In this document: positions 1,710-55,616 of the stretch, one piece after another | Numbering within the stretch: the first letter of the stretch is position 1 | Layout of the letters: each line of letters begins with the position of its first letter | Assembly: GCA_013297755.1 (NCBI GenBank) | Contig: JAAFIH010000009.1 | Span: forward strand, 1-64,000 | Reading direction: 5' to 3' | Origin: Cytophagales bacterium | Lineage (GTDB): Bacteria > Bacteroidota > Bacteroidia > Cytophagales > UBA9547 | DNA length: 64,000 nt | Notes under the pieces: model-generated | What the model saw: only the letters and a program-made list of their open reading frames with translations | What the model was told of the DNA's origin: nothing | The model's database searches: none | Program-made: the position numbers and the translations under genes

Positions 1710-2312
1710 ATGGCAAATATTACCCACATTTCGCAATTAGACCTAACAAAAAGATACACTTATGCAGATTATCTAACTTGGTCGTTTGACGAAAGATTGG
1801 AAATTATTAAAGGAAATTTAAGGCCATTAGGTGCTTCTCCAGGAACAACTCATCAACAAACATCTAGCAGATTGTTGTATTATTTTAGTGATTTCATAAG
1901 AAAATATAAAAATATAGCATTTTTTCATGCCCCTTTAGATGTTAGGCTGTTTGGTGCCGACAAATATGATGATGCTACAACAGTAGTACAACCTGATTTA
2001 TTGGTTGTTTTGGATAAGTCAAAAATAGAAGAAATTGGTTGCAATGGTGCTCCTGATTTAATTATCGAAATTTTATCTACTTTTGTAGGTAGCAAACATG
2101 ATTTAGTTACAAAATATAATTTATACGAAGAAGCTGGTGTTGGCGAATATTGGATTGTGTATCCTTACGAAGGTGTTATTGATGTTTACCACCTACAAAA
2201 CCAAAAATATTATTTACATCAAAAATACACAAACGGAGATAATATTGATGTAAAAACTTTGCCAGGATTAGTAATAAACATGGATGATTTATTTTATGAA
2301 GATGTAGTTTAA
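1710..2312 (+). CDS. Uma2 family (DUF820) putative restriction endonuclease, array copy 1
   Basis: A 200-residue protein with the Uma2 PD-(D/E)XK-like fold. Visible are VVQPDLLVV (catalytic Asp), GAPDLIIEILS (Glu on the next strand) and LYEEAGVGEYWIVYP. Biological roles of Uma2 proteins are poorly known. The N-terminus MANITHISQLD is nearly identical to the two following genes, so the array arose by tandem duplication. This copy is the most diverged: the usual SPST after IEIL is replaced by STFV, and the lysine-rich helix differs. It starts 29 nt after the first epimerase and reads the same way, so it is probably co-transcribed. Confidence 0.85.
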   Translation: MANITHISQLDLTKRYTYADYLTWSFDERLEIIKGNLRPLGASPGTTHQQTSSRLLYYFSDFIRKYKNIAFFHAPLDVRLFGADKYDDATTVVQPDLLVVLDKSKIEEIGCNGAPDLIIEILSTFVGSKHDLVTKYNLYEEAGVGEYWIVYPYEGVIDVYHLQNQKYYLHQKYTNGDNIDVKTLPGLVINMDDLFYEDVV

Positions 2313-2325
2313 ATTAAGTAATTAT

Positions 2326-2925
2326 ATGGCAAATATTACCCACATTTCTCAATTAGATATAACCAAAAGCTACACAGTTGGCGATTACCTTTCATGGAAA
2401 TTTGACGAAATGGTAGAGCTTATCAAAGGCAAGATATACAACATGAGCCCTGCCCCAAGAGGTAAACATCAAGAGATTTCGGGTAATATATTTGGAAATT
2501 TATTTAATTTATTGAGAAGTCGAAATTTAGATTGTAAATTATATTCTGCTCCCTACGATGTATATTTGAAAGGATTAGAATCATGGAATGAAACTGTTGT
2601 GCAGCCAGATATTTGTATCATTTGCGATTTTGATAAAATTCATGATAAAGGTTGCGTTGGTGCTCCAGATATGATTGTAGAAATTTTGAGCCCAAGTACA
2701 TTACGAAAAGATGTAGACACAAAATTTCATTTGTATGAAGAAAATGGGGTTAGAGAATATTGGATTGTGAACCCAAAAGAAAAACAAGTGTTAACATACA
2801 CATTGGATTTAAATGCAAATGTATATATTGAAGTTGGCAATTTTACAGAAGAAGCAAAAATTCCGATAACGATATGGAATGATAGTTCGGTTTTATGGAG
2901 CGAAATTTTCAGGAATATCAAATAA
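2326..2925 (+). CDS. Uma2 family (DUF820) putative restriction endonuclease, array copy 2
   Basis: A 199-residue Uma2 protein. It contains ELIKGKIYNMSPAP (N-terminal substrate-side segment), VVQPDICIICD, GAPDMIVEILSPST and LYEENGVREYWIVNP, so all three core motif blocks of the family are intact. It begins 13 nt after copy 1. Its first 45 codons are almost identical at DNA level to copy 3 (including the stretch SYTVGDYLSWKFDEMVELIK), which points to a recent duplication. Copies 2 and 3 resemble each other more than either resembles copy 1. Confidence 0.87.
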   Translation: MANITHISQLDITKSYTVGDYLSWKFDEMVELIKGKIYNMSPAPRGKHQEISGNIFGNLFNLLRSRNLDCKLYSAPYDVYLKGLESWNETVVQPDICIICDFDKIHDKGCVGAPDMIVEILSPSTLRKDVDTKFHLYEENGVREYWIVNPKEKQVLTYTLDLNANVYIEVGNFTEEAKIPITIWNDSSVLWSEIFRNIK

Positions 2926-2934
2926 CCCATTTGT

Positions 2935-3522
2935 ATGCAAACAAATATTACACATATTTCTCAATTAGATATAACCAAAAGTTACACTGTTGGCGATTAT
3001 CTTTCATGGAAATTTGACGAAATGGTAGAACTTATCAAAGGCAAGATATACAACATTAGTCCTGCTCCAAGAAGTAAGCATCAAGCATATTTGCATAATT
3101 TAGATGGAATATTTTATAATCTTACTAGAAAACGTACATGTAAAGTTTTTCCTGCTCCATTTGATGTTTATCTTAAAGGAATGGAATCAGACCAAGATAC
3201 TGTTGTGCAGCCTGATATTTGCATTGTTTGTGATCAAACAAAAATAAGTGAATTTGGATGTGTTGGCAGCCCTGATATGATTATAGAAATTCTTTCTCCA
3301 TCCACTATGAAAAAAGATTTGGAAGCTAAATTTCAATTATACGAAGAAAATGGCGTAAACGAATATTGGATAATAGCCCCTGAAAATTTACAGGTGTCGG
3401 TATATACTTTAGGAATTGATAAACTCTATATACATCGTGGAGATTTTTTGATGAATCAAAATGTGCCTGTTTATACTCTGAAAGAGGCATTGGTAAAAAT
3501 AAATGATATTTTTGAATTTTAA
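2935..3522 (+). CDS. Uma2 family (DUF820) putative restriction endonuclease, array copy 3
   Basis: A 195-residue Uma2 protein starting 9 nt after copy 2. VVQPDICIVCD, GSPDMIIEILSPST and LYEENGVNEYWII supply the PD-(D/E)XK-like core. The start MQTNITHISQL aligns with the MANITHISQL of the sister genes. The N-terminal 60 residues match copy 2 closely. The middle diverges (HNLDGIFYNLTRKRTCKVFPAPFDVYLKG), as expected for duplicated genes evolving separate specificities. A fourth, more distant Uma2 gene lies at 10.1 kb. Confidence 0.87.
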   Translation: MQTNITHISQLDITKSYTVGDYLSWKFDEMVELIKGKIYNISPAPRSKHQAYLHNLDGIFYNLTRKRTCKVFPAPFDVYLKGMESDQDTVVQPDICIVCDQTKISEFGCVGSPDMIIEILSPSTMKKDLEAKFQLYEENGVNEYWIIAPENLQVSVYTLGIDKLYIHRGDFLMNQNVPVYTLKEALVKINDIFEF

Positions 3523-3542: not shown

Positions 3543-4610
3543 ATGAATATAGCATTAATCACTGGCTCTGCAGGACTTATAGGGAGCGAATCTGTCGAAT
3601 TCTTTTCTAATAAATTTGATAAAATTATTGGAGTTGATAATAATTTGCGAGAATATTTTTTTGGGGCTGATGCCTCCACAGTTTGGAACAACAATAGGCT
3701 AAAAGAAAAATTCGTTAATTACGAATCTCGAAATGCTGACATACGTTCAGTTGAAGCTTTAGAAAAAATATTTAAAGAATTTGGCAATGATATAAAACTA
3801 ATAGTCCACACTGCAGCACAACCTAGCCACGATTGGGCTGCCAAAGAGCCATTTACGGATTTTTCGGTAAATGCCACTGGCACACTCAATATGCTCGAAA
3901 TGACACGCCAACATTGCCCTGAAGCCGTTTTTATTTTTACTTCAACTAATAAAGTGTATGGAGATAATCCAAATTTCTTACCTTTAGTAGAACTCGAACA
4001 TCGTTGGGAAATTGATAGCAAACATGCATTTTATAAAAACGGAATCCCTGAAACTTTTAGTATAGATCATACTAAACATTCGCTATTTGGAGCTTCAAAA
4101 GTGGCTGCAGATGTGTTGGTGCAAGAGTATGGCAAATATTTTGGTATGAAAACTGGCGTTTTTCGTGGCGGATGTCTTACTGGGCCTAATCATTCTGGTA
4201 CAAAATTACATGGCTTTTTGAGTTACTTGATGAAATGTGCCATTTCAGGCGAAAAATACACCGTTTTTGGTTATAAAGGCAAGCAAGTTCGTGATAACAT
4301 ACATAGCTGGGATTTAGTAAACATGTTTTGGCATTTTTATCAAAATCCACGTGCAGGCGAAGTGTATAATGCAGGTGGTGGCAGGCATAGCAACTGCTCT
4401 ATGGCAGAAGCAATTGCAATTTGCGAAAAAATCACTTCTAAAAAAATGAATTATTCTTACGTAGAAACCAATCGAATTGGCGATCATATTTGGTGGATTA
4501 GCGACCTCTCAAAATTCAAAACACATTATCCAAATTGGAATTGGAAATATGGCATAGATGATATACTGGGTCAGATATTTGAGGCAACAGTGAAACGTGG
4601 TATGTTGTAG
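3543..4610 (+). CDS. NAD-dependent epimerase/dehydratase with Phe in place of the catalytic Tyr
   Basis: A 355-residue extended SDR and paralogue of the 616-1680 product. The Rossmann motif GSAGLIGS is at residues 8-15, followed by [11 protein letters not shown] and [14 protein letters not shown]. The expected YxxxK is F182-GAS-K186, so the usual general-base tyrosine is missing. This may reflect an unusual mechanism or a non-canonical subfamily. The segment [18 protein letters not shown] is close to the CDP-paratose 2-epimerase group. The stop codon TAG falls inside the left inverted repeat of the adjacent four-helix-bundle cassette, so the native C-terminus may have been altered slightly by that insertion. 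Confidence 0.82.
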
Positions 4611-5033
4611 GTTTTAAGTTTTAAGAAAAAAGATAATTAATATGCAAGACTTTAGAAAGTTGGAAGTTTGGAAAAATTCTCATACTCAAACACTAAAGTT
4701 GTATAAAATCACATCTTTATTTCCAAAAGAGGAATTATTTGGATTAACTTCTCAATTAAGACGAGCAGCAAGTTCTATTCCAACCAATTTAGCAGAAGGT
4801 TTTGGACGAAATTCTAATCCTCAAGTAATTCAGTTTATCAATATTGCTATAGGTTCTTCTCAAGAAGTAGAGTATCTACTTTTGCTTTCTAAAGATTTAA
4901 ACTACATCTCAGTAGAAAATTTTAATGACTTATCGCTAGAAGCAGGAAAAATAAAAGCTATGCTGTATAATTTAATGAAAAAAATAGAAATTAATAACAA
5001 AATACCTAATACTTAAAACTTATTACATACAAC
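4604..5033. mobile_element. Four-helix-bundle gene cassette bounded by 22-bp inverted repeats
   Basis: The left end (4604-4625) begins GTTGTAGGTTTTAAG and the right end (5012-5033), read on the other strand, begins GTTGTATGTAATAAG. Both finish with TTTTAAG, and the 22-bp arms match at 19 positions. Between them sits only the four-helix-bundle gene, whose stop codon lies in the right arm. The upstream epimerase stop (TAG) lies in the left arm, and the downstream GT2 gene starts with TTG 2 nt past the right arm. The arms are built from 7-bp GTTTTAA-like units. That this is a mobile cassette is an inference. No target duplication was seen. Confidence 0.6.
4642..5016 (+). CDS. Four helix bundle protein (S23/23S rRNA intervening-sequence family)
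   Basis: A 124-residue, almost entirely helical protein. The hallmarks of the S23/IVP family are visible: LEVWKNSHTQTLKLYKIT (helix 1), FGLTSQLRRAASSIPTNLAEGFGR (helix 2 and the conserved SIPxNLAEG), FINIAIGSSQEVEYLLLLSKDL (helix 3), and a final helix. Members were first noticed inside 23S rRNA intervening sequences and form small oligomers related to the Avd accessory protein. Their function is unknown. The gene is embedded in an inverted-repeat cassette inside a sugar operon, so its presence there probably reflects insertion rather than function. A decayed relative lies at 49.5-49.8 kb. Confidence 0.87.
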   Translation: MQDFRKLEVWKNSHTQTLKLYKITSLFPKEELFGLTSQLRRAASSIPTNLAEGFGRNSNPQVIQFINIAIGSSQEVEYLLLLSKDLNYISVENFNDLSLEAGKIKAMLYNLMKKIEINNKIPNT

Positions 5034-5035
5034 CT

Positions 5036-5773
5036 TTGAAACTATCCATCGTGATTCCTGCCTACAACGAAGAAGGTTCTATTGCCGAAACCTTACATTC
5101 GCTTTATGATACTCTTATTAAATTCAAGATTGAACACGAAATTTTCGTTACAAATGATAATTCTAAGGATAATACTGCTCAAGTATTAAGCGATTTGCAA
5201 AAAAATATTCCAACTTTAAAATGGGAAACTAACCTAGGACTAAATGGTTTTGGATATGCTGTTAGATATGGATTAGAACGCTTTTCTGGAGATTGCGTGG
5301 CCGTAATGATGGCTGATTTGTCGGACGATCCATTAGATTTGGTAAGGTATTATCATCGAATGTTAGAAGACAATGTAGATTGTGTTTTTGGCACGCGTTG
5401 GAGTGATGGTGGAAAAGTATATGATTATCCTTTTGTAAAAAAATATATCAATAGACTGGCAAATTTTATTGTTCGTATATTTTTAGGAATAAAATATAAT
5501 GATACCACAAATGCCTTTAAATTATATAAAAGAGAAACTATACAAGGGATTAAACCATTTCTTTCTCCCCATTTTAATTTAACACTCGAACTCCCAGCCA
5601 AAGCAATTGTTAGAGGATATAGCTATACTATAGTTCCAAATTCGTGGCGAAACAGAAAAGCAGGCGAATCAAAGTTGAAAATAAAAGAAATGGGAAGCAG
5701 ATATTTTTTTATTTTAATGTATTGTTGGCTCGAAAAATATTTTTCAAGAGGAGATTTTAAAAAGAAATATTAG
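5036..5773 (+). CDS. Family 2 glycosyltransferase, dolichyl-phosphate mannose synthase-like
   Basis: A 245-residue GT2 enzyme starting MKLSIVIPAYNEEGSI, with the nucleotide-binding VTNDNSKDNT segment, the metal-binding MMADLSDDP motif in place of the usual DADxxxxP, and a C-terminal RNRKAGESKLKIKEM segment as in ArnC/DPM1-type enzymes. There is no C-terminal membrane pair, so it is the short soluble form. It likely transfers a sugar to polyprenyl phosphate for the linked epimerase products. The start is TTG at 5036. No ATG or GTG is available in frame upstream, and the codon lies immediately after the four-helix-bundle cassette, so the original start or ribosome site may have been displaced by that insertion. 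Confidence 0.85.
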   Translation: MKLSIVIPAYNEEGSIAETLHSLYDTLIKFKIEHEIFVTNDNSKDNTAQVLSDLQKNIPTLKWETNLGLNGFGYAVRYGLERFSGDCVAVMMADLSDDPLDLVRYYHRMLEDNVDCVFGTRWSDGGKVYDYPFVKKYINRLANFIVRIFLGIKYNDTTNAFKLYKRETIQGIKPFLSPHFNLTLELPAKAIVRGYSYTIVPNSWRNRKAGESKLKIKEMGSRYFFILMYCWLEKYFSRGDFKKKY

Positions 5774-9439: not shown

Positions 9440-10051
9440 ATGTCAAAAATTGTAGTTGGAGTATCTGGGGCTAGTGGTTCGGGTAAAACAAGTTTTGTAA
9501 AAGAGGTAGTATCCTTACTTGGTATAGAAAATGTGTGTGTGCTGTCGATGGATAATTATTATAAACCTATCCAAGCACAAGTAAGAGATAGCAATGGAAA
9601 AGAAAACTTCGACCTGCCACAAGCCATTGATATTGAGCGATTTAGTAAAGATTTCACAGATTTGCAAAATGGAATTACAATAGAAATAGACGAATATTTA
9701 TTCAATAATCCATACAAAACACCAAAAAAAATTATAATAAAACCAAAACCAATTACAATCATAGAAGGTGTATTTGTGTTTCATTTTAAGGAATTAAAAA
9801 ACGTTTTTGATTTAAAAGTTTATATTCAGGTTTCAGAACATATTAGCATTATTCGAAGATTGAGTAGAGATCTTGTAGAAAGAAACTACCCCATAGAACA
9901 TACACTTTATGACTTTGAAAATCATGTGTGGCATGGGTACAAAAAATACATAAAACCTTATATCCAAGAAGCCGATATAGTAATAAATAATAATAAAAAC
10001 ATGAATAAATCTATTGAAATTATTTGTGTGTATCTAAAATCTGTTATTTAA
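9440..10051 (+). CDS. Uridine kinase-like P-loop NTPase
   Basis: A 203-residue kinase. The Walker A GASGSGKT is at residues 10-17. SMDNYYKP (substrate-binding Asp-Tyr region) follows, then NFDLPQAIDIERF, IIEGVFVFH (Walker B-like strand) and RRLSRDLVERN (lid arginines). These are the uridine/cytidine kinase (Udk) hallmarks, so it likely phosphorylates uridine or cytidine in pyrimidine salvage. The C-terminal segment is diverged from classical Udk and the protein is slightly short, so a related kinase with another small substrate is possible. It ends the yqeY-cvpA operon. Confidence 0.82.
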   Translation: MSKIVVGVSGASGSGKTSFVKEVVSLLGIENVCVLSMDNYYKPIQAQVRDSNGKENFDLPQAIDIERFSKDFTDLQNGITIEIDEYLFNNPYKTPKKIIIKPKPITIIEGVFVFHFKELKNVFDLKVYIQVSEHISIIRRLSRDLVERNYPIEHTLYDFENHVWHGYKKYIKPYIQEADIVINNNKNMNKSIEIICVYLKSVI

Positions 10052-49184: not shown

Positions 49185-49325
49185 GGAGAATGTTTTGAAT
49201 TGAGAATGTTTTGAATTGAGAATGTTTTGAATTGAGAATTGAGAATGGAGAATGTTTCGAATTGAGAATGTTTTGAATTGAGAATTGAGAATGTTTCGAA
49301 TTGAGAATGGAGAATGGAGAATAAA
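49185..49325. repeat. TTGAGAA-type repeat array, left orientation
   Basis: Repeated GAATTGAGAATGTTTT and TTGAGAATTGAGAATG units follow the NeuB-family gene's stop. The reverse-complement type (TTCTCAA units) appears at 49406-49476, so the two arrays form an inverted pair. An 80-nt non-repeat segment lies between them. Confidence 0.85.
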
Positions 49326-49405
49326 TAGCCGCTGGCTTTACCTAACTTGATTTTAGTTTTGTTTAATGTAAGTTTATTGATAAAATTATTTAATGCGAAG
49401 GCAAC

Positions 49406-49476
49406 ATTCTCAATTATCAATTCTCAATTCTCAATTATCAATTATCAATTCTCAATTATCAATTCTCAATTAAAAA
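49406..49476. repeat. TTCTCAA-type repeat array, right orientation
   Basis: Repeats of AATTCTC and AATTATC (7-bp units), the inverse of the preceding array, end 12 nt before the 3' end of the decayed four-helix-bundle gene. Confidence 0.85.
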
Positions 49477-49487
49477 GCGATTCCCAA

Positions 49488-49840
49488 TTATTTAATCTTT
49501 TTTGAAGATTTTATAATTGAAGTTAGCAATCTTAGAAGCTCGTTACAATCAATATTGATAGATTCAAATTGTTTTTGTTCGATATAGTTAGTATCTTTAA
49601 GTAAACTTAACCAATACTCGGTTTCTCTAGCTTCTTTTAGTGCAACACTCATTTTGTGAATAAAATCAGCAGCAGATTGTGCATCAACTGCCTCTGCAAT
49701 ATTTGCACCTATGGAAGTTCCACATCTTAAAATCTGTTTTGATAAAATAAATTCTTTGTGTGTTTCAACTAAGTATTTATATAAATGATTATTCTAATTG
49801 GAAACAAATACGATTTAGATTTTACAACATTATCTTTCAT
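49488..49840 (-). pseudogene. Four helix bundle protein gene with a frameshift
   Basis: From ATG 49840 the frame reads MKDNVVKSKSYLFPIRIIIYINT then stops. Shifting one base near 49790 continues YKYLVETHKEFILSKQILRCGTSIGANIAEAVDAQSAADFIHKMSVALKEARETEYWLSLL...LLRLLTSIIKSSKKIK to a stop at 49488. The family signature (SIGANIAEA) and length are right. It lies between arrays of TTCTCAA repeats, paralleling the intact cassette at 4.6 kb. Confidence 0.82.
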
Positions 49841-49871: not shown

Positions 49872-50771
49872 ATGAATACAACAATAGAAAATAATTCTCA
49901 ATTCTCAATTCTCAATTCTCAATTCTCAGAAGAAAATTCTCAATTCTCAATTCTCAATTCTCAATTACAAGATTTGTTCAGTCTTAAAAACAAAGTTGCT
50001 ATCGTTACAGGTGCTTGTGGGCTTATTGGCAAACAACACTGTATTGCCTTGGCAGAAGCTGGTGCAAGTGTAATTGTTGCTGATTTAGACATCAATAAAA
50101 CACAAGCCTTTGCAAAAGAATTAGGTCGAAAACATCTGGGCATTTATCTGGATGTTACAAATCAACAAAGTGTAGAATTAGCCAAAAAAGAAATTTTATC
50201 AGAATATGATAGTTTAGATATTTTGGTAAACAACGCAGCTATCAATGATATGTTTGAAAATCCTGCTATGGCTGCCGAGCAATCAAAGTTTGAAAACTAC
50301 CCCTTGGAGATGTTTCAACGCTCAATAGATGTAAATATCAATGGCGTTTTTAATTGCTCACAAATATTTGGCACACACATGGCTCAAAAAGGTTCTGGTA
50401 GTATTATCAATGTTGCTTCTACTTATGGCATAGTTGGCCCAGATCAGTCTTTGTATATAGATAAAGAAGGAAAACAAGCATTCTACAAATCAGCAGCATA
50501 TCCTGTTACCAAAGGAGCTGTCGTTAACTTTACTCGATTTTTAGCTGCATATTGGGGCAAAAATGGCGTAAGAGTAAATACACTATCGCCAGGTGGAGTA
50601 GAAAACAGTCAAGATGAGTGGTTTGTAGAAAAATATAGCAGCAAAACATTATTAAACAGAATGGCTAAAAATTCTGATTACAAAGGAGCTTTAATTTTCC
50701 TTGCATCAGATGCTTCAAGCTACATGACTGGTGCCAATTTAGTAGTAGATGGTGGGTGGACAGCCATATAA
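49872..50771 (+). CDS. Short-chain dehydrogenase/reductase with a repeat-encoded N-terminal tail
   Basis: A 299-residue SDR. The fold proper starts around residue 35: LKNKVAIVTGACGLIGKQHCIALAEAGA, LVNNAAINDMF, the catalytic Ser in IINVASTYGIVG, YPVTK (Tyr-x3-Lys) and VNTLSPGGV. The first 34 residues are translated 7-bp repeats (NSQFSILNSQF pattern). A TTG at 49974 could be an alternative start beyond the repeat. Probably reduces an intermediate in the glycan pathway. Loss or gain of one 7-bp unit would shift the frame if the upstream ATG is used. Confidence 0.88.
   Translation: MNTTIENNSQFSILNSQFSEENSQFSILNSQLQDLFSLKNKVAIVTGACGLIGKQHCIALAEAGASVIVADLDINKTQAFAKELGRKHLGIYLDVTNQQSVELAKKEILSEYDSLDILVNNAAINDMFENPAMAAEQSKFENYPLEMFQRSIDVNINGVFNCSQIFGTHMAQKGSGSIINVASTYGIVGPDQSLYIDKEGKQAFYKSAAYPVTKGAVVNFTRFLAAYWGKNGVRVNTLSPGGVENSQDEWFVEKYSSKTLLNRMAKNSDYKGALIFLASDASSYMTGANLVVDGGWTAI
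49893..49968. repeat. AATTCTC repeats inside the SDR coding region
   Basis: About nine units, with an interruption (AGAAGAAA), are read in frame as NSQFSIL-type heptads. Three 7-bp units make exactly seven codons. Confidence 0.85.
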
Positions 50772-51000
50772 TTGAGAATTGAGAATTGAGAATTAAGAAT
50801 GAATTGCCGTTGGCTTCAGCCAACGGATTAAATAAAAAATCAAGAGATAAATGAACATATCGAATATATTATTAAAGATTGTTTGTGTAAGTAATATTCT
50901 CAATTCTAAATTCTCAATTCTCAATTCTCAATTCTCAATTCTCAATTCTTAATTCTCAATTTAGAAAATATACTCAATTCAAAACATTCTCAATTTTAAA
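50768..51000. repeat. Inverted pair of 7-bp repeat arrays without an intact gene between
   Basis: TTGAGAA units at about 50770-50800 are matched by inverse TTCTCAA units at about 50899-50995. Between them lie a hairpin CCGTTGGC/GCCAACGG and a short frame (NEHIEYIIKDCLCK) that could be a decayed small gene, though this is not certain. It looks like an emptied version of the cassette pattern. Confidence 0.65.
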
Positions 51001-51002
51001 CA

Positions 51003-51953
51003 ATGAACATTATCCCATACACCACAGCCATCATGTTTGCATGGATTGGCTTTATGATTTTTTTAGAACGAAAATACCCTTTTCGCAAAGGTTTACCCAT
51101 TTTTCGTGAAGGTTTTTGGATAGATTTTGTATGGTACACAGTCATTCAAAGTTACTTTTTGCAAATACTTATTTTTGAAGTAATCATTTGGGCTATTCAA
51201 TCAAAAGTAAATGAAAATGATTTTTTTTACTCCATTCTCCATTCTCCATTCTCAATTAAACATTGGCATATTGGTTGGCAAGTCTTATTTTTCCTTGTTA
51301 CACATGATATTTACATTTATTTTTTTCATCGTTTGCAACACCATAACAAATGGCTTTGGCGAACACATGAAGCACATCATTCTGTAAAAGAAGTAGATTG
51401 GCTGGCTGGTTCTCGTTCTCATGTGTTGGAAATTATTATTAACCAAACCATAGAATTTGCTCCCATTATTTTACTTGGAGCTGCTCCAGAAGTTGTACCC
51501 ATCAAAGCATTGCTTGATGCCATGTTTGGCCTGTGGATTCATTCAAATACTAGATTCACACTAGGTTGGTTGGGCAAAATCATCAATACACCAGTAGCAC
51601 ACCAGTGGCATCATGCAGACGATAAAATAGTGTTTTATGCCAATTATGCTACTAAATTTTCTATCTGGGATCATTTATTGGGCACTGCCATCACTCCCAA
51701 TCGTATTCCTGAAAAATGGGGATTGCCTTATGATTTCCCAAAAGATTATTTCGTTCAACATATTTTTTCAATCAAGCGTTTTGATGAACGCATATTATTT
51801 AAAAATCGCTGGATTAGATTTGTATATCAAATAAGGATAAAATTGATAAAACTGTTTTTGCCAAAAAGAATAGTTGAATTTTTATTGCCTAAAAAAGTAA
51901 ATAATGACAAACAAAGTGAATCTAAGATTCTAAGTTATCAGCTATCAATTTAG
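51003..51953 (+). CDS. Sterol desaturase/fatty acid hydroxylase family protein
   Basis: A 316-residue membrane di-iron enzyme. The histidine boxes are complete: HDIYIYFFHRLQHH, HEAHHSVKE and, further on, HQWHHADD. There are about four membrane helices. Family members hydroxylate or desaturate lipids. It carries an unusual loop (YSILHSPFSIK) encoded by CCATTCT/CAATT repeats of the type that fill the neighbouring gaps. In a glycan cluster it might modify a lipid anchor, which is inference. Confidence 0.88.
   Translation: MNIIPYTTAIMFAWIGFMIFLERKYPFRKGLPIFREGFWIDFVWYTVIQSYFLQILIFEVIIWAIQSKVNENDFFYSILHSPFSIKHWHIGWQVLFFLVTHDIYIYFFHRLQHHNKWLWRTHEAHHSVKEVDWLAGSRSHVLEIIINQTIEFAPIILLGAAPEVVPIKALLDAMFGLWIHSNTRFTLGWLGKIINTPVAHQWHHADDKIVFYANYATKFSIWDHLLGTAITPNRIPEKWGLPYDFPKDYFVQHIFSIKRFDERILFKNRWIRFVYQIRIKLIKLFLPKRIVEFLLPKKVNNDKQSESKILSYQLSI
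51229..51259. repeat. Short repeat units in the sterol desaturase coding region
   Basis: Four CCATTCT/CAATTC-like 7-bp units (ACTCCATTCTCCATTCT then CCATTCTCAATT) sit inside an otherwise conserved membrane protein gene in a predicted loop. The repeat type equals the intergenic arrays. Confidence 0.7.
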
Positions 51954-54047: not shown

Positions 54048-54148
54048 TATCATTTTTTGTGTTTGATTGCCTATTTTTACCAAATACACACCTTTTGGTA
54101 AATTGAAAACTCGTTTTGGGTTGAGTGTGGGCGAAAGTCTGAACACGA
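54039..54148 (-). pseudogene. C-terminal T9SS sorting-domain remnant
   Basis: About 35 codons read LSPTLNPKRVFNLPKGVYLVKIGNQTQKMIVF then stop. LPKGVYLVKI followed by a basic strand is the hallmark of type A C-terminal sorting domains of type IX secretion cargo. The rest of the gene is missing; the fragment abuts the GxxExxY cassette, whose end forms the break point. Confidence 0.75.
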
Positions 54149-54612
54149 TTTATTTGATTTTAGGATTAATAGGATTAGTATTTGGGCTTACTAATTTTTT
54201 GTTATAGACACGATTAAACTCTAAGCTTAATCCTCCAAAATTAATGAGTAAACCATCTGCAATATTGTATGCTTCACAATAGTTTATTGCTTGAGCCTTA
54301 TGCACAGCTTCTAACTTCTCAATTGCCTTTAATTCAACCATTACTTTGTCTTCTACAAAAAAATCAACTCTTCTTGTACCAATATCAATACCTTCATAAT
54401 AAATGGACATTTCCATTTCTCTGTTAAATCCTAATCCTTGTTTTTCAAATTCAATAGCTAATGCTCTTTGGTAAATTACTTCTTGAAACCCATTACCTAA
54501 AATAGTGTGTACTTTCATTGCACAACCAATTATCTTATGGGTTAGCTTGTCAATTTCGACTTTGTTTATTTCCATCTTGTTAATCATCTAATCTTTAAAA
54601 TCATGTTCAGAC
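54137..54612. mobile_element. GxxExxY gene cassette bounded by about 39-bp inverted repeats
   Basis: Both ends start GTCTGAACA(C/T)GATTT and continue with spaced GATT units; 29 of 39 positions match between the left end (from 54137) and the reverse complement of the right end (to 54612). Only the GxxExxY gene lies between, with its start codon and stop codon inside the arms. The RhuM stop codon abuts the right end and the T9SS remnant the left end. No target duplication was found. Confidence 0.65.
54150..54587 (-). CDS. GxxExxY protein (PDDEXK_3 family)
   Basis: A 145-residue protein. The name-giving motif is GFQEVIY at residues 33-39. THKIIGCAMKVHTILGNG precedes it, and RRVDFFVEDKVMVELKAIEKLEAVHKAQAINYCEAYNI is the PD-(D/E)XK-like core (Asp, then Glu-x-Lys). 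The family is related to nucleases but its role is unknown, and genes are often found as isolated cassettes. The last residues (NTNPINPKIK) are translated cassette-end repeats. ATG 54587 is used; ATG 54575 is possible. Confidence 0.88.
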   Translation of the reverse strand: MINKMEINKVEIDKLTHKIIGCAMKVHTILGNGFQEVIYQRALAIEFEKQGLGFNREMEMSIYYEGIDIGTRRVDFFVEDKVMVELKAIEKLEAVHKAQAINYCEAYNIADGLLINFGGLSLEFNRVYNKKLVSPNTNPINPKIK

Positions 54613-55616
54613 TACTTTTTAGGCTTCTTTGGGTTCAATTTTTTTGCTGTATTTTCTATTTGTTTTACAAAGTGTTTTTCGCCTTCTGATAATTCGTTTT
54701 TTGTTTTCTGTTTGTAAATTTCATACTCAGCATTTGCCTTTTTGAGTGCTTCTGAATGGCTTACACTACCAGCATTTTGTAAAATATCATTGCCTGTCAT
54801 TCTTACAAAATCATCTAAGCGTTCGATCCAATCTTTCATATACATTGGCTTGCGGTTTAGTGCTTGTAATTCGGCTAACTCTAAGTAAGCAGTTACCATT
54901 CTATTGAGCACATTCAGTTCGGTTTCGTCCAAATAGTTTTTAGCAATTTCGGTTTCTTGTTTTGTTGGTTTGCTTCCTTTTATGTGGGTTAAACCAAGAT
55001 TTGGCTTTTTTGCTTCTATTCTTTGATAAATAATTTCGGCAGCTGTATGTCCGTGTGCTGCCCAGTGCATTTTATTTTGCACTGTTTGAAAAAACTGTAT
55101 GGATATTTCTAACTTGGCATCATAGTCAATGCTGGTAGCGTAAATATCCAAAACTTTTCTCCAAAATACTTTTTCGGATGAACGTATATCACGGATACGG
55201 GCCAATAATTCTTCAAAATAATTACCGCCACCAGCTTGTTTCAGCAAATCATCGTTCATTGTAAATCCTTTTACAATATATTCTCTTAATCTGGCCGTTG
55301 CCCACTGGCGAAATTTTGTTCCTTGATGGCTTTTTACACGATAGCCAACAGAAATGATTACATCAAGGTTGTAGTAATTGGTATCATAAGATTTACCATC
55401 TAAGGCAGTATGTCGGAATTTCCGACATACTGTATTTTCAAGCAGTTCGCCTTCTTTAAAAATATTGCCAATATGCTCGGTTATGGTAACTCTACTTTTT
55501 TGAAAAAGCTCAGCCAATTGGGCTTGAGTAAGCCAAACGGTCTCGTCTTCTAAACGGGTTTCTATTTTTGTAGTGCCGTCTTCGGTTTGGTATATAATTA
55601 GGTTTGAATTTTCCAT
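54612..55616 (-). CDS. RhuM family (virulence protein-like) DNA-binding protein
   Basis: A 334-residue protein. EDETVWLTQAQLAELFQKSRVTITEHIGNIFKEGEL is the N-terminal helix-turn-helix; NLDVIISVGYRVKSHQGTKFRQWATARLREYIVKGF is the RhuM core; ILARIRDIR and YDAKLEISIQFFQTVQNKMHWAAHGHTAAEIIYQR follow. Function is unknown; the family was named from a Salmonella pathogenicity island. A perfect 27-bp palindrome (55406-55432) encodes TVCRKFRHT. Paralogues occur at 62.7 and 63.9 kb. Confidence 0.87.
   Translation of the reverse strand: MENSNLIIYQTEDGTTKIETRLEDETVWLTQAQLAELFQKSRVTITEHIGNIFKEGELLENTVCRKFRHTALDGKSYDTNYYNLDVIISVGYRVKSHQGTKFRQWATARLREYIVKGFTMNDDLLKQAGGGNYFEELLARIRDIRSSEKVFWRKVLDIYATSIDYDAKLEISIQFFQTVQNKMHWAAHGHTAAEIIYQRIEAKKPNLGLTHIKGSKPTKQETEIAKNYLDETELNVLNRMVTAYLELAELQALNRKPMYMKDWIERLDDFVRMTGNDILQNAGSVSHSEALKKANAEYEIYKQKTKNELSEGEKHFVKQIENTAKKLNPKKPKK
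55406..55432. repeat. Perfect palindrome in the RhuM coding region
   Basis: CAGTATGTCGGAA and TTCCGACATACTG are 13-bp arms around a single T. It sits at the same protein position as a similar palindrome in the 62.7 kb RhuM gene, sharing TCGGAATTTCCGA. Confidence 0.85.

Follow-up and report, generated by a model that had tools for sequence, protein, structure and literature searches.

Four-helix-bundle genes between inverted heptamer arms look like mobile cassettes related to rRNA intervening sequences

Between an epimerase gene and a glycosyltransferase gene of a sugar operon in a Cytophagales bacterium, within the 64,000-nucleotide stretch of DNA that we analysed (hereafter the window), sits a small gene for a four-helix-bundle protein framed by an inverted repeat. 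The locus raises the question of whether gene and repeat together form a mobile unit, as a first-pass annotation had proposed in describing them as a cassette inserted into the operon and similar in layout to a GxxExxY cassette elsewhere in the window.

The element in the sugar operon

The inverted repeat around the gene is real, and larger than was claimed. Its 22-nt arms (4604–4625 and 5012–5033) pair at 19 of 22 positions (86%), which shuffled 70-nt flanks never matched (0/1000; best 18), and the repeat reaches 31 nt at 81% pairing (4593–4623 and 5007–5037). The 19/22 repeat is the core of two longer arms of five heptamers each, a left arm on the plus strand at 4597–4631 (GTGGTAT GTTGTAG GTTTTAA GTTTTAA GAAAAAA) and a right arm at 4999–5033 whose minus-strand units read GTTGTAT GTAATAA GTTTTAA GTATTAG GTATTTT, giving an element of 437 bp, arms included. 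All ten units start with G and nine with GT; an all-G start was seen in 0 of 20000 shuffles. As proposed, the arms enclose an S23/IVP-type gene alone: the sole ORF of at least 70 aa in the enclosed stretch (4642–5016, plus strand, 124 aa) matches PF05635, the four-helix-bundle family of the 23S rRNA IVP, with an E-value of 2e-37 and also TIGR02436 (four helix bundle protein), and its stop codon falls within the right arm. The edges were likewise correctly described. The stop codon of the upstream NAD-dependent epimerase gene (3543–4610, plus strand), TAG at 4608–4610, lies in the left arm, the first two units of which overlap the final codons and stop of the epimerase, while the downstream family 2 glycosyltransferase (GT2) gene (5036–5773, plus strand) starts with TTG at 5036, 2 bases from the right arm, its homologues in the related genomes G001 and G004 starting with ATG. 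In a predicted RNA fold, moderately better than those of shuffled sequences (z –1.7; 4 of 100 as good), the two arms pair together. In the same sugar operon, positions 1710–3522 hold a tandem trio of Uma2-family (PF05685) genes.

That the cassette was inserted into this operon is borne out by an uninterrupted junction in a relative: in the same-genus genome G001, epimerase and GT2 (89% and 93% identical to those of the window) overlap at TAATG and there are no arms. In G004 the two genes stand apart, with a different sequence of roughly 750 bases between them, and in G002 no GT2 gene was found adjoining the epimerase. The gene is therefore missing from this locus in some relatives rather than present in all of them. 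The window cassette holds no transposase, and neither a clear target-site duplication nor movement was seen at the sites compared.

The genome to which the window belongs carries seven PF05635 copies, and a genome-wide comparison of their flanks found inverted arrays at five of the other copies, each with its own heptamer (AACTACG, TAATGCG, AATTATG, GTTAATG and TGAGAAT); one copy (L003) has mixed arrays, partly in direct orientation. Two of the seven are decayed, one by an in-frame stop (L004) and the other, also in the window, by an N-terminal truncation with no start codon found (49500–49784, minus strand). Upstream of this second window gene an array lies in the start of an SDR ORF (49888–49973, minus strand); on its downstream side are interrupted TTGAGAA-like heptamers, recognised by eye (49188–49322, plus strand), which are the inverted partner of that array, and a further array that is direct relative to it (49402–49473, minus strand). 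The G001 homologue of this gene lies across the SDR gene, about 1.2 kb off, at the position where the window has an arms-only inverted heptamer pair without an IVP gene (50765–50966; arms 50765–50806 and 50893–50966). Heptamer arrays also occur within coding sequence in two species of the genus (window 49888–49973 and 51230–51264; L082 8598–8705 and 10480–10513), where the genes hit are the SDR gene, at its start, and a gene identified by Pfam as a fatty acid hydroxylase, in its middle, and at 9497–9700 of L082, from G001, arrays alternate with a repeated hairpin-like unit, GATTCTGCgacatcgaaGCAGAATAA.

Heptamer arms and their words across IVP genes

Outside rRNA, PF05635 genes are annotated as 'S23 ribosomal protein' or 'four helix bundle protein', and 42 of the 59 genomes searched as relatives, the window's own included, have at least one. 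We scanned for tandem periods in 81 stretches (the window and 80 genome stretches taken in order of E-value from the top of the matches listed, with G058:C46 passed over), amounting to 1.457 Mb with 97 IVP hits, the split pseudogenes L064, L092 and L115 counting as two hits each. Period-7 arrays cover 6.76% of the sequence within 100 bp of an IVP gene and 4.71% at 100–300 bp, falling to 0.17% at 4–8 kb and 0.05% beyond 8 kb. Near the genes period 14, the double of 7, comes next, followed by period 8 (1.27%) and period 15 (0.29%), with periods 4–6 and 9–13 at 0.11% or less, so that only 8 and 14 stand out besides 7. Random 20-kb stretches gave 0 period-7 arrays in 400 kb from IVP-rich and 400 kb from IVP-less genomes, and thus no contrast between the two.

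Inverted arms were scored at thresholds of 13 and 16, fixed after the first shuffles, for 96 of the 97 hits, one being left out for a short flank. Scores of at least 13 were reached by 66 of 96 IVP hits (68.8%); for the two controls, 1920 random places and 242 other small ORFs, the shares were 0.9% and 4.1%. At a score of at least 16 the three shares were 50.0%, 0.0% and 1.7%, respectively. Direct matches of at least 16 were found at 17.7% of IVP hits, 0.6% of random places and 3.7% of other small ORFs. A separate scan of named loci, the best 80 of at least 588, of which 78 were usable after two were dropped for short flanks, gave inverted arms of at least 13 at 49 and at least 16 at 34 loci, the direct orientation reaching these scores at 14 and 12. 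Among plasmid loci (15 of 29 records fetched, all complete and named) inverted arms of at least 13 flank 14 of the 15, which comprise thirteen cyanobacterial loci, the sole miss among them, and one each from Gemmatirosa and Azospirillum. No inverted arms reached the threshold at 30/96 hits in the relatives, 29/78 named loci and 1/15 plasmid loci, and direct matches of at least 13 occur at 20/96 of the relatives' hits and 2/15 plasmid loci. Beyond Bacteroidota, the armed loci include ones from records titled Ignavibacteriae, SAR324, Desulfobacteraceae, Nitrospirae, Alphaproteobacteria and Clostridia, every one of these a MAG; misbinning may affect some of the named MAGs, the flanks of L179 matching Flavobacterium. 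Of arrays not near an IVP gene 29/43 scored as inverted pairs against 1018/1608 in the control, a test that is too loose, and a search of phages with one IVP protein as query returned no match.

The best period is 7 in 98 of 115 arms, 8 in 13 and another in four; in the plasmid arms it is 7 in 12 of 14 and 8 in the other two. Aligned cyclically in the sense of the gene, the 98 period-7 arms, all from among those already scoring at least 13, share the consensus G-W-N-N-T-N-A with an information of 1.53, compared with a mean of 1.21 and a maximum of 1.29 in 30 permutations, and fall into 78 distinct cyclic words. In the same set of arms, word similarity is 4.49 for cross-genome pairs of IVP proteins at least 60% identical (n = 89) and 3.46 when word positions are permuted. 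For the 63 of these close pairs that have unrelated flanks it is 4.50, compared with 3.12 for 3799 pairs below 50% identity, and pairs from the same genome below 50% identity score no higher (3.00, n = 31). A Mantel permutation of word against protein reached the observed association in 4 of 500 cases, protein pairs in these tests not being independent. The heptamer word thus goes with the IVP lineage and not with the host, a tie that would also be expected from joint inheritance alone. A unit length chosen to place stop codons in all frames was considered and rejected: a stop is present on the gene strand in 66 of 98 words (null 65 ± 4) and on the other strand in 46 (36 ± 4), an excess to which we give no weight.

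The first-pass annotation had also suggested a mobilisation principle shared with GxxExxY genes. The window's GxxExxY (PF13366/TIGR04256) cassette occupies 54136–54613 on the minus strand between arms at 54136–54175 and 54574–54613, whose units recur at about 8–9 nt. Across PF13366 loci of the own genome and its relatives, inverted arms of at least 13 are present at 15/27 and of at least 16 at 12/27; 10/27 score at least 16 in direct orientation as well. Among the 15 armed loci the best period is 8 or 9 in ten and 7 in one. GxxExxY is present in 31/42 genomes with and 1/17 without IVP, phylogeny not being corrected for in this count, which like those for Y1 and RVT_1 below was compiled by hand from the separate searches. 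GxxExxY cassettes thus look parallel to IVP cassettes, with units mostly of 8 or 9 nt; the proposed shared principle is partly supported, a common mobilising machinery being at most conjectural.

Occupied and empty sites, and how the element may move

Nine sites have a homologous junction without the IVP gene, at one of which, that of the second window copy, the gene lies about 1.2 kb away. At L099, G002 keeps the IVP gene and G001 has instead an arms-only pair of another word, which resembles that of G001's own IVP at C143. The gene is missing from the L094 site, where the stop of the upstream gene overlaps an arm in the filled state, in both G044 and G058, and at the L078 site G043 retains abutting arms with the gene gone. 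The remaining four are plasmid sites: the cas6–cas4 IVP of Anabaena sp. 90 (L358) is absent from Dolichospermum (L370) with flanks 98–99% identical, two Nostoc stop/start junctions are empty in other plasmids of Nostoc, some belonging to the same strain (flank pieces 87–98% identical), and the nrdB–nrdA IVP of Nostoc edaphicum is absent from Calothrix (85–86% identity). L098 has no synteny in G001 or G002, hence no empty-site comparison. In the junctions inspected insertion is at gene boundaries, gene-less copies with arms exist, and a consistent target-site duplication was not seen by eye at the empty/filled pairs. Junctions without the cassette in relatives, the Dolichospermum cas6–cas4 junction among them, carry different hairpin-like repeats recognised by eye (L370 915–1189 and intergenic stretches of L321 and L322), as if such junctions were shared landing places.

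We put the probability at roughly 0.8 that the element is an IVS-like mobile cassette, a PF05635 gene between inverted, degenerate 7-nt tandem arms, and that such cassettes are widespread, apparently a kind of mobile genetic element that has gone unnoticed. Gene and arms would move as one unit, and the IVP protein, by analogy with Avd, would bind its own word, whether in DNA or in an RNA hairpin, and so probably recognises its own arms, which predicts cognate binding of word by protein. Once transcribed, the arms may fold to a stem cleavable by RNase III, as in rRNA intervening sequences, and such a stem would make insertion cheap for the operon. The strand-cutting enzyme would be supplied by the host or by another element, and in rRNA intervening sequences we would see the particular case of a copy that landed in a 23S gene. 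Against this reading count the lack of a transposase, of a clear target-site duplication and of observed movement, the loci above that have no inverted arms or match in direct orientation, and the moderate advantage of the RNA fold over shuffles.

One such enzyme could be a Y1 (HUH, IS200/RAYT-like) transposase that recognises the arm hairpins and moves the cassette as a non-autonomous element. Y1_Tnp is found in 34/42 genomes with IVP and 4/17 without (Fisher 6e-5), and in 34/41 and 4/11 of those of at least 2.5 Mb (p 0.005), a correlation that, however, disregards phylogeny and genome plasticity. Eight genomes with IVP have no Y1, including G036 (97% complete, five IVP copies), and a heptamer array accompanies 1 of 20 Y1 loci, 1.6 kb off, so that Y1 transposases as flanked partner genes are rejected and we regard this route of movement as unlikely.

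Placement within one operon bears on whether the element moves at all. Ten named loci, among the best 80 of at least 588, share a beta-oxidation operon of a 3-hydroxyacyl-CoA dehydrogenase/enoyl-CoA hydratase gene (A), a thiolase gene (B; both by Pfam) and a gene that by reading is acyl-CoA-dehydrogenase-like (C). The IVP gene lies upstream of A at L185, between A and B at six loci across several Bacteroidota families (L175, L179, L184, L186, L189 and L217) and between B and C at L156, L163 and L167; a second IVP gene occupies the B–C junction at L189 and L217, and an extra IVP fragment precedes B at the contig edge of L156. Since three junctions are occupied, a model in which all copies sit at one place and both arms switch word was set aside; IVP genes hop among adjacent junctions, or else these junctions are favoured targets. 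The words at the A–B junction are AGATTTG-like (L175, L184 and L189) or TTGTATA-like (L179 and L186), and separate insertions fit this difference equally as well as a concerted change of both arms. The six of ten loci at a single junction across families, together with the IVP gene that G002 retains at the L099 site, speak against mobility; the shared junction, any concerted arm change, the intercistronic placement and the pairing of the arms in the RNA fold would all suit a domesticated regulator or RNA-processing module, its arms being selected RNase III or terminator sites and its presence or absence reflecting differential loss. However, the gene is absent from L370 despite its near-identical flanks, has relocated across one gene within a genus, as it has between L185 and L186, where it lies on opposite sides of the first beta-oxidation gene, and is decayed in two of the seven own copies, and domestication is in our view distinctly improbable.

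We give little credence to the arrays being independent simple repeats, produced by polymerase slippage, into which an IVP gene mobile by other means prefers to insert. Arrays without an IVP gene do occur at gene boundaries, and an origin by slippage has been proposed for bacterial heptamers (PMC4692102), but some empty sites are array-free by eye (G001; L371, L374 and L373), the 800 kb of random sequence contain no period-7 array, the word tracks IVP protein similarity at unrelated sites, and both arms of a locus carry a common word. Movement by reverse transcription, as kin of the diversity-generating retroelement Avd system that PF05635 resembles in sequence and structure (PMC10053308), is hardly credible and was dropped as the motor, since RVT_1 shows no association with IVP (20/42 compared with 7/17 genomes), is absent from seven genomes that are 97–100% complete and carry 5–11 IVP copies (G057, G028, G043, G018, G052, G038 and G036), and occurs once in the own genome, on a different contig. 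The enzyme mobilising the IVS-like cassette need not be a reverse transcriptase.

Relation to known systems

The PF05635 gene being the sole ORF of at least 70 aa between its arms, the cassette encodes no transposase of its own and falls outside insertion sequences and transposons. It resembles REP/RAYT elements and MITEs in its short inverted ends, gene-less copies and insertion at gene boundaries, but differs from the former in having no internal Y1 ORF, in the near-absence of arrays from Y1 loci (1/20) and in arms that are heptamer arrays and not a single palindrome, and from the latter, its gene-less copies notwithstanding, in its ORF and in target-site duplications that were not consistently seen. 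Avd is a four-helix bundle homologous to PF05635 (PMC10053308); in contrast to the Avd retroelement, however, the cassette contains no reverse transcriptase, the seven IVP-rich genomes above have no RVT_1, and a PDB sequence search did not find Avd, its credible matches being only 2gsc and 2rld. IVP cassettes are also present in cyanobacterial plasmid CRISPR operons (cas6–cas4 and cas10–cmr3; L357, L358 and L361), and these may account for the association between IVP and CRISPR adaptation modules that has been reported (PMC10910872).

If the mobile-cassette reading is true, PF05635 genes outside rRNA mark mobile cassettes in Bacteroidota, Cyanobacteria and other phyla and sit in many kinds of operon, those for CRISPR and ribonucleotide reductase included, so that methods based on gene neighbours may misassign IVP to those systems. 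It would also join two puzzles, the role of rRNA intervening sequences and S23/IVP proteins and the origin of bacterial heptamer repeats.

Heptamers and IVS proteins have each been published before. TAACTGA repeats are described from Beggiatoaceae, cyanobacteria and Bacteroidetes (PMC4679880), and their opposite strand, GTTATCA, fits the GWNNTNA consensus of the cassette arms; Xanthomonas campestris has 70 convergent pairs of GGGAATC arrays, described as generally unconnected to mobile elements (PMC4692102), and also an IVP protein, XCC0516 (2gsc). Like the cassette arms, both repeats form intergenic period-7 tandem arrays (PMC4679880, PMC4692102). The words 'intervening', 'S23' and 'four helix' are absent from the main texts of these two reports, and beyond the Coxiella report discussed below we noticed no literature that joins heptamers with IVS proteins, most subscription journals lying outside the search. 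A more far-reaching reading, which we advance tentatively, is that the IVP protein is the specificity factor of a new minimal class of mobile element in which every IVP lineage reads and propagates a word of its own, gene-less arm pairs in trans included; the orphan heptamers found in Bacteroidota, cyanobacteria, Xanthomonas and giant sulfur bacteria might then be its traces, and rRNA intervening sequences copies that landed in 23S genes.

The heptamer arms, the tie to rRNA intervening sequences and their own heptamers, and the spread across phyla all go beyond what the first-pass annotation had described. Among the nearest known systems is the rRNA IVS of Coxiella burnetii, reported as 428 nt long with inverted ends and with GACAGAT heptamers before its S23 ORF that vary in number among strains (PMC4990558). 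We term the cassette IVS-like and not an IVS because it lies outside 23S rRNA: the window copy sits between epimerase and GT2, and in a screen of 160 IVP stretches (L038–L117 and L150–L229) for seven 23S motifs, with two mismatches allowed, six stretches contain one motif and none contains two. Whereas the IVS interrupts 23S rRNA, the cassettes lie between protein genes, and, unlike in Coxiella, each of their two arms is a heptamer array whose word is tied to the IVP lineage. Cassette and IVS nevertheless share the PF05635 family, a length near 430 nt, a stem closed by terminal inverted repeats, and heptamers (PMC4990558), and the right arm of one cassette, in a Lewinella MAG (L151), carries the very word GACAGAT.
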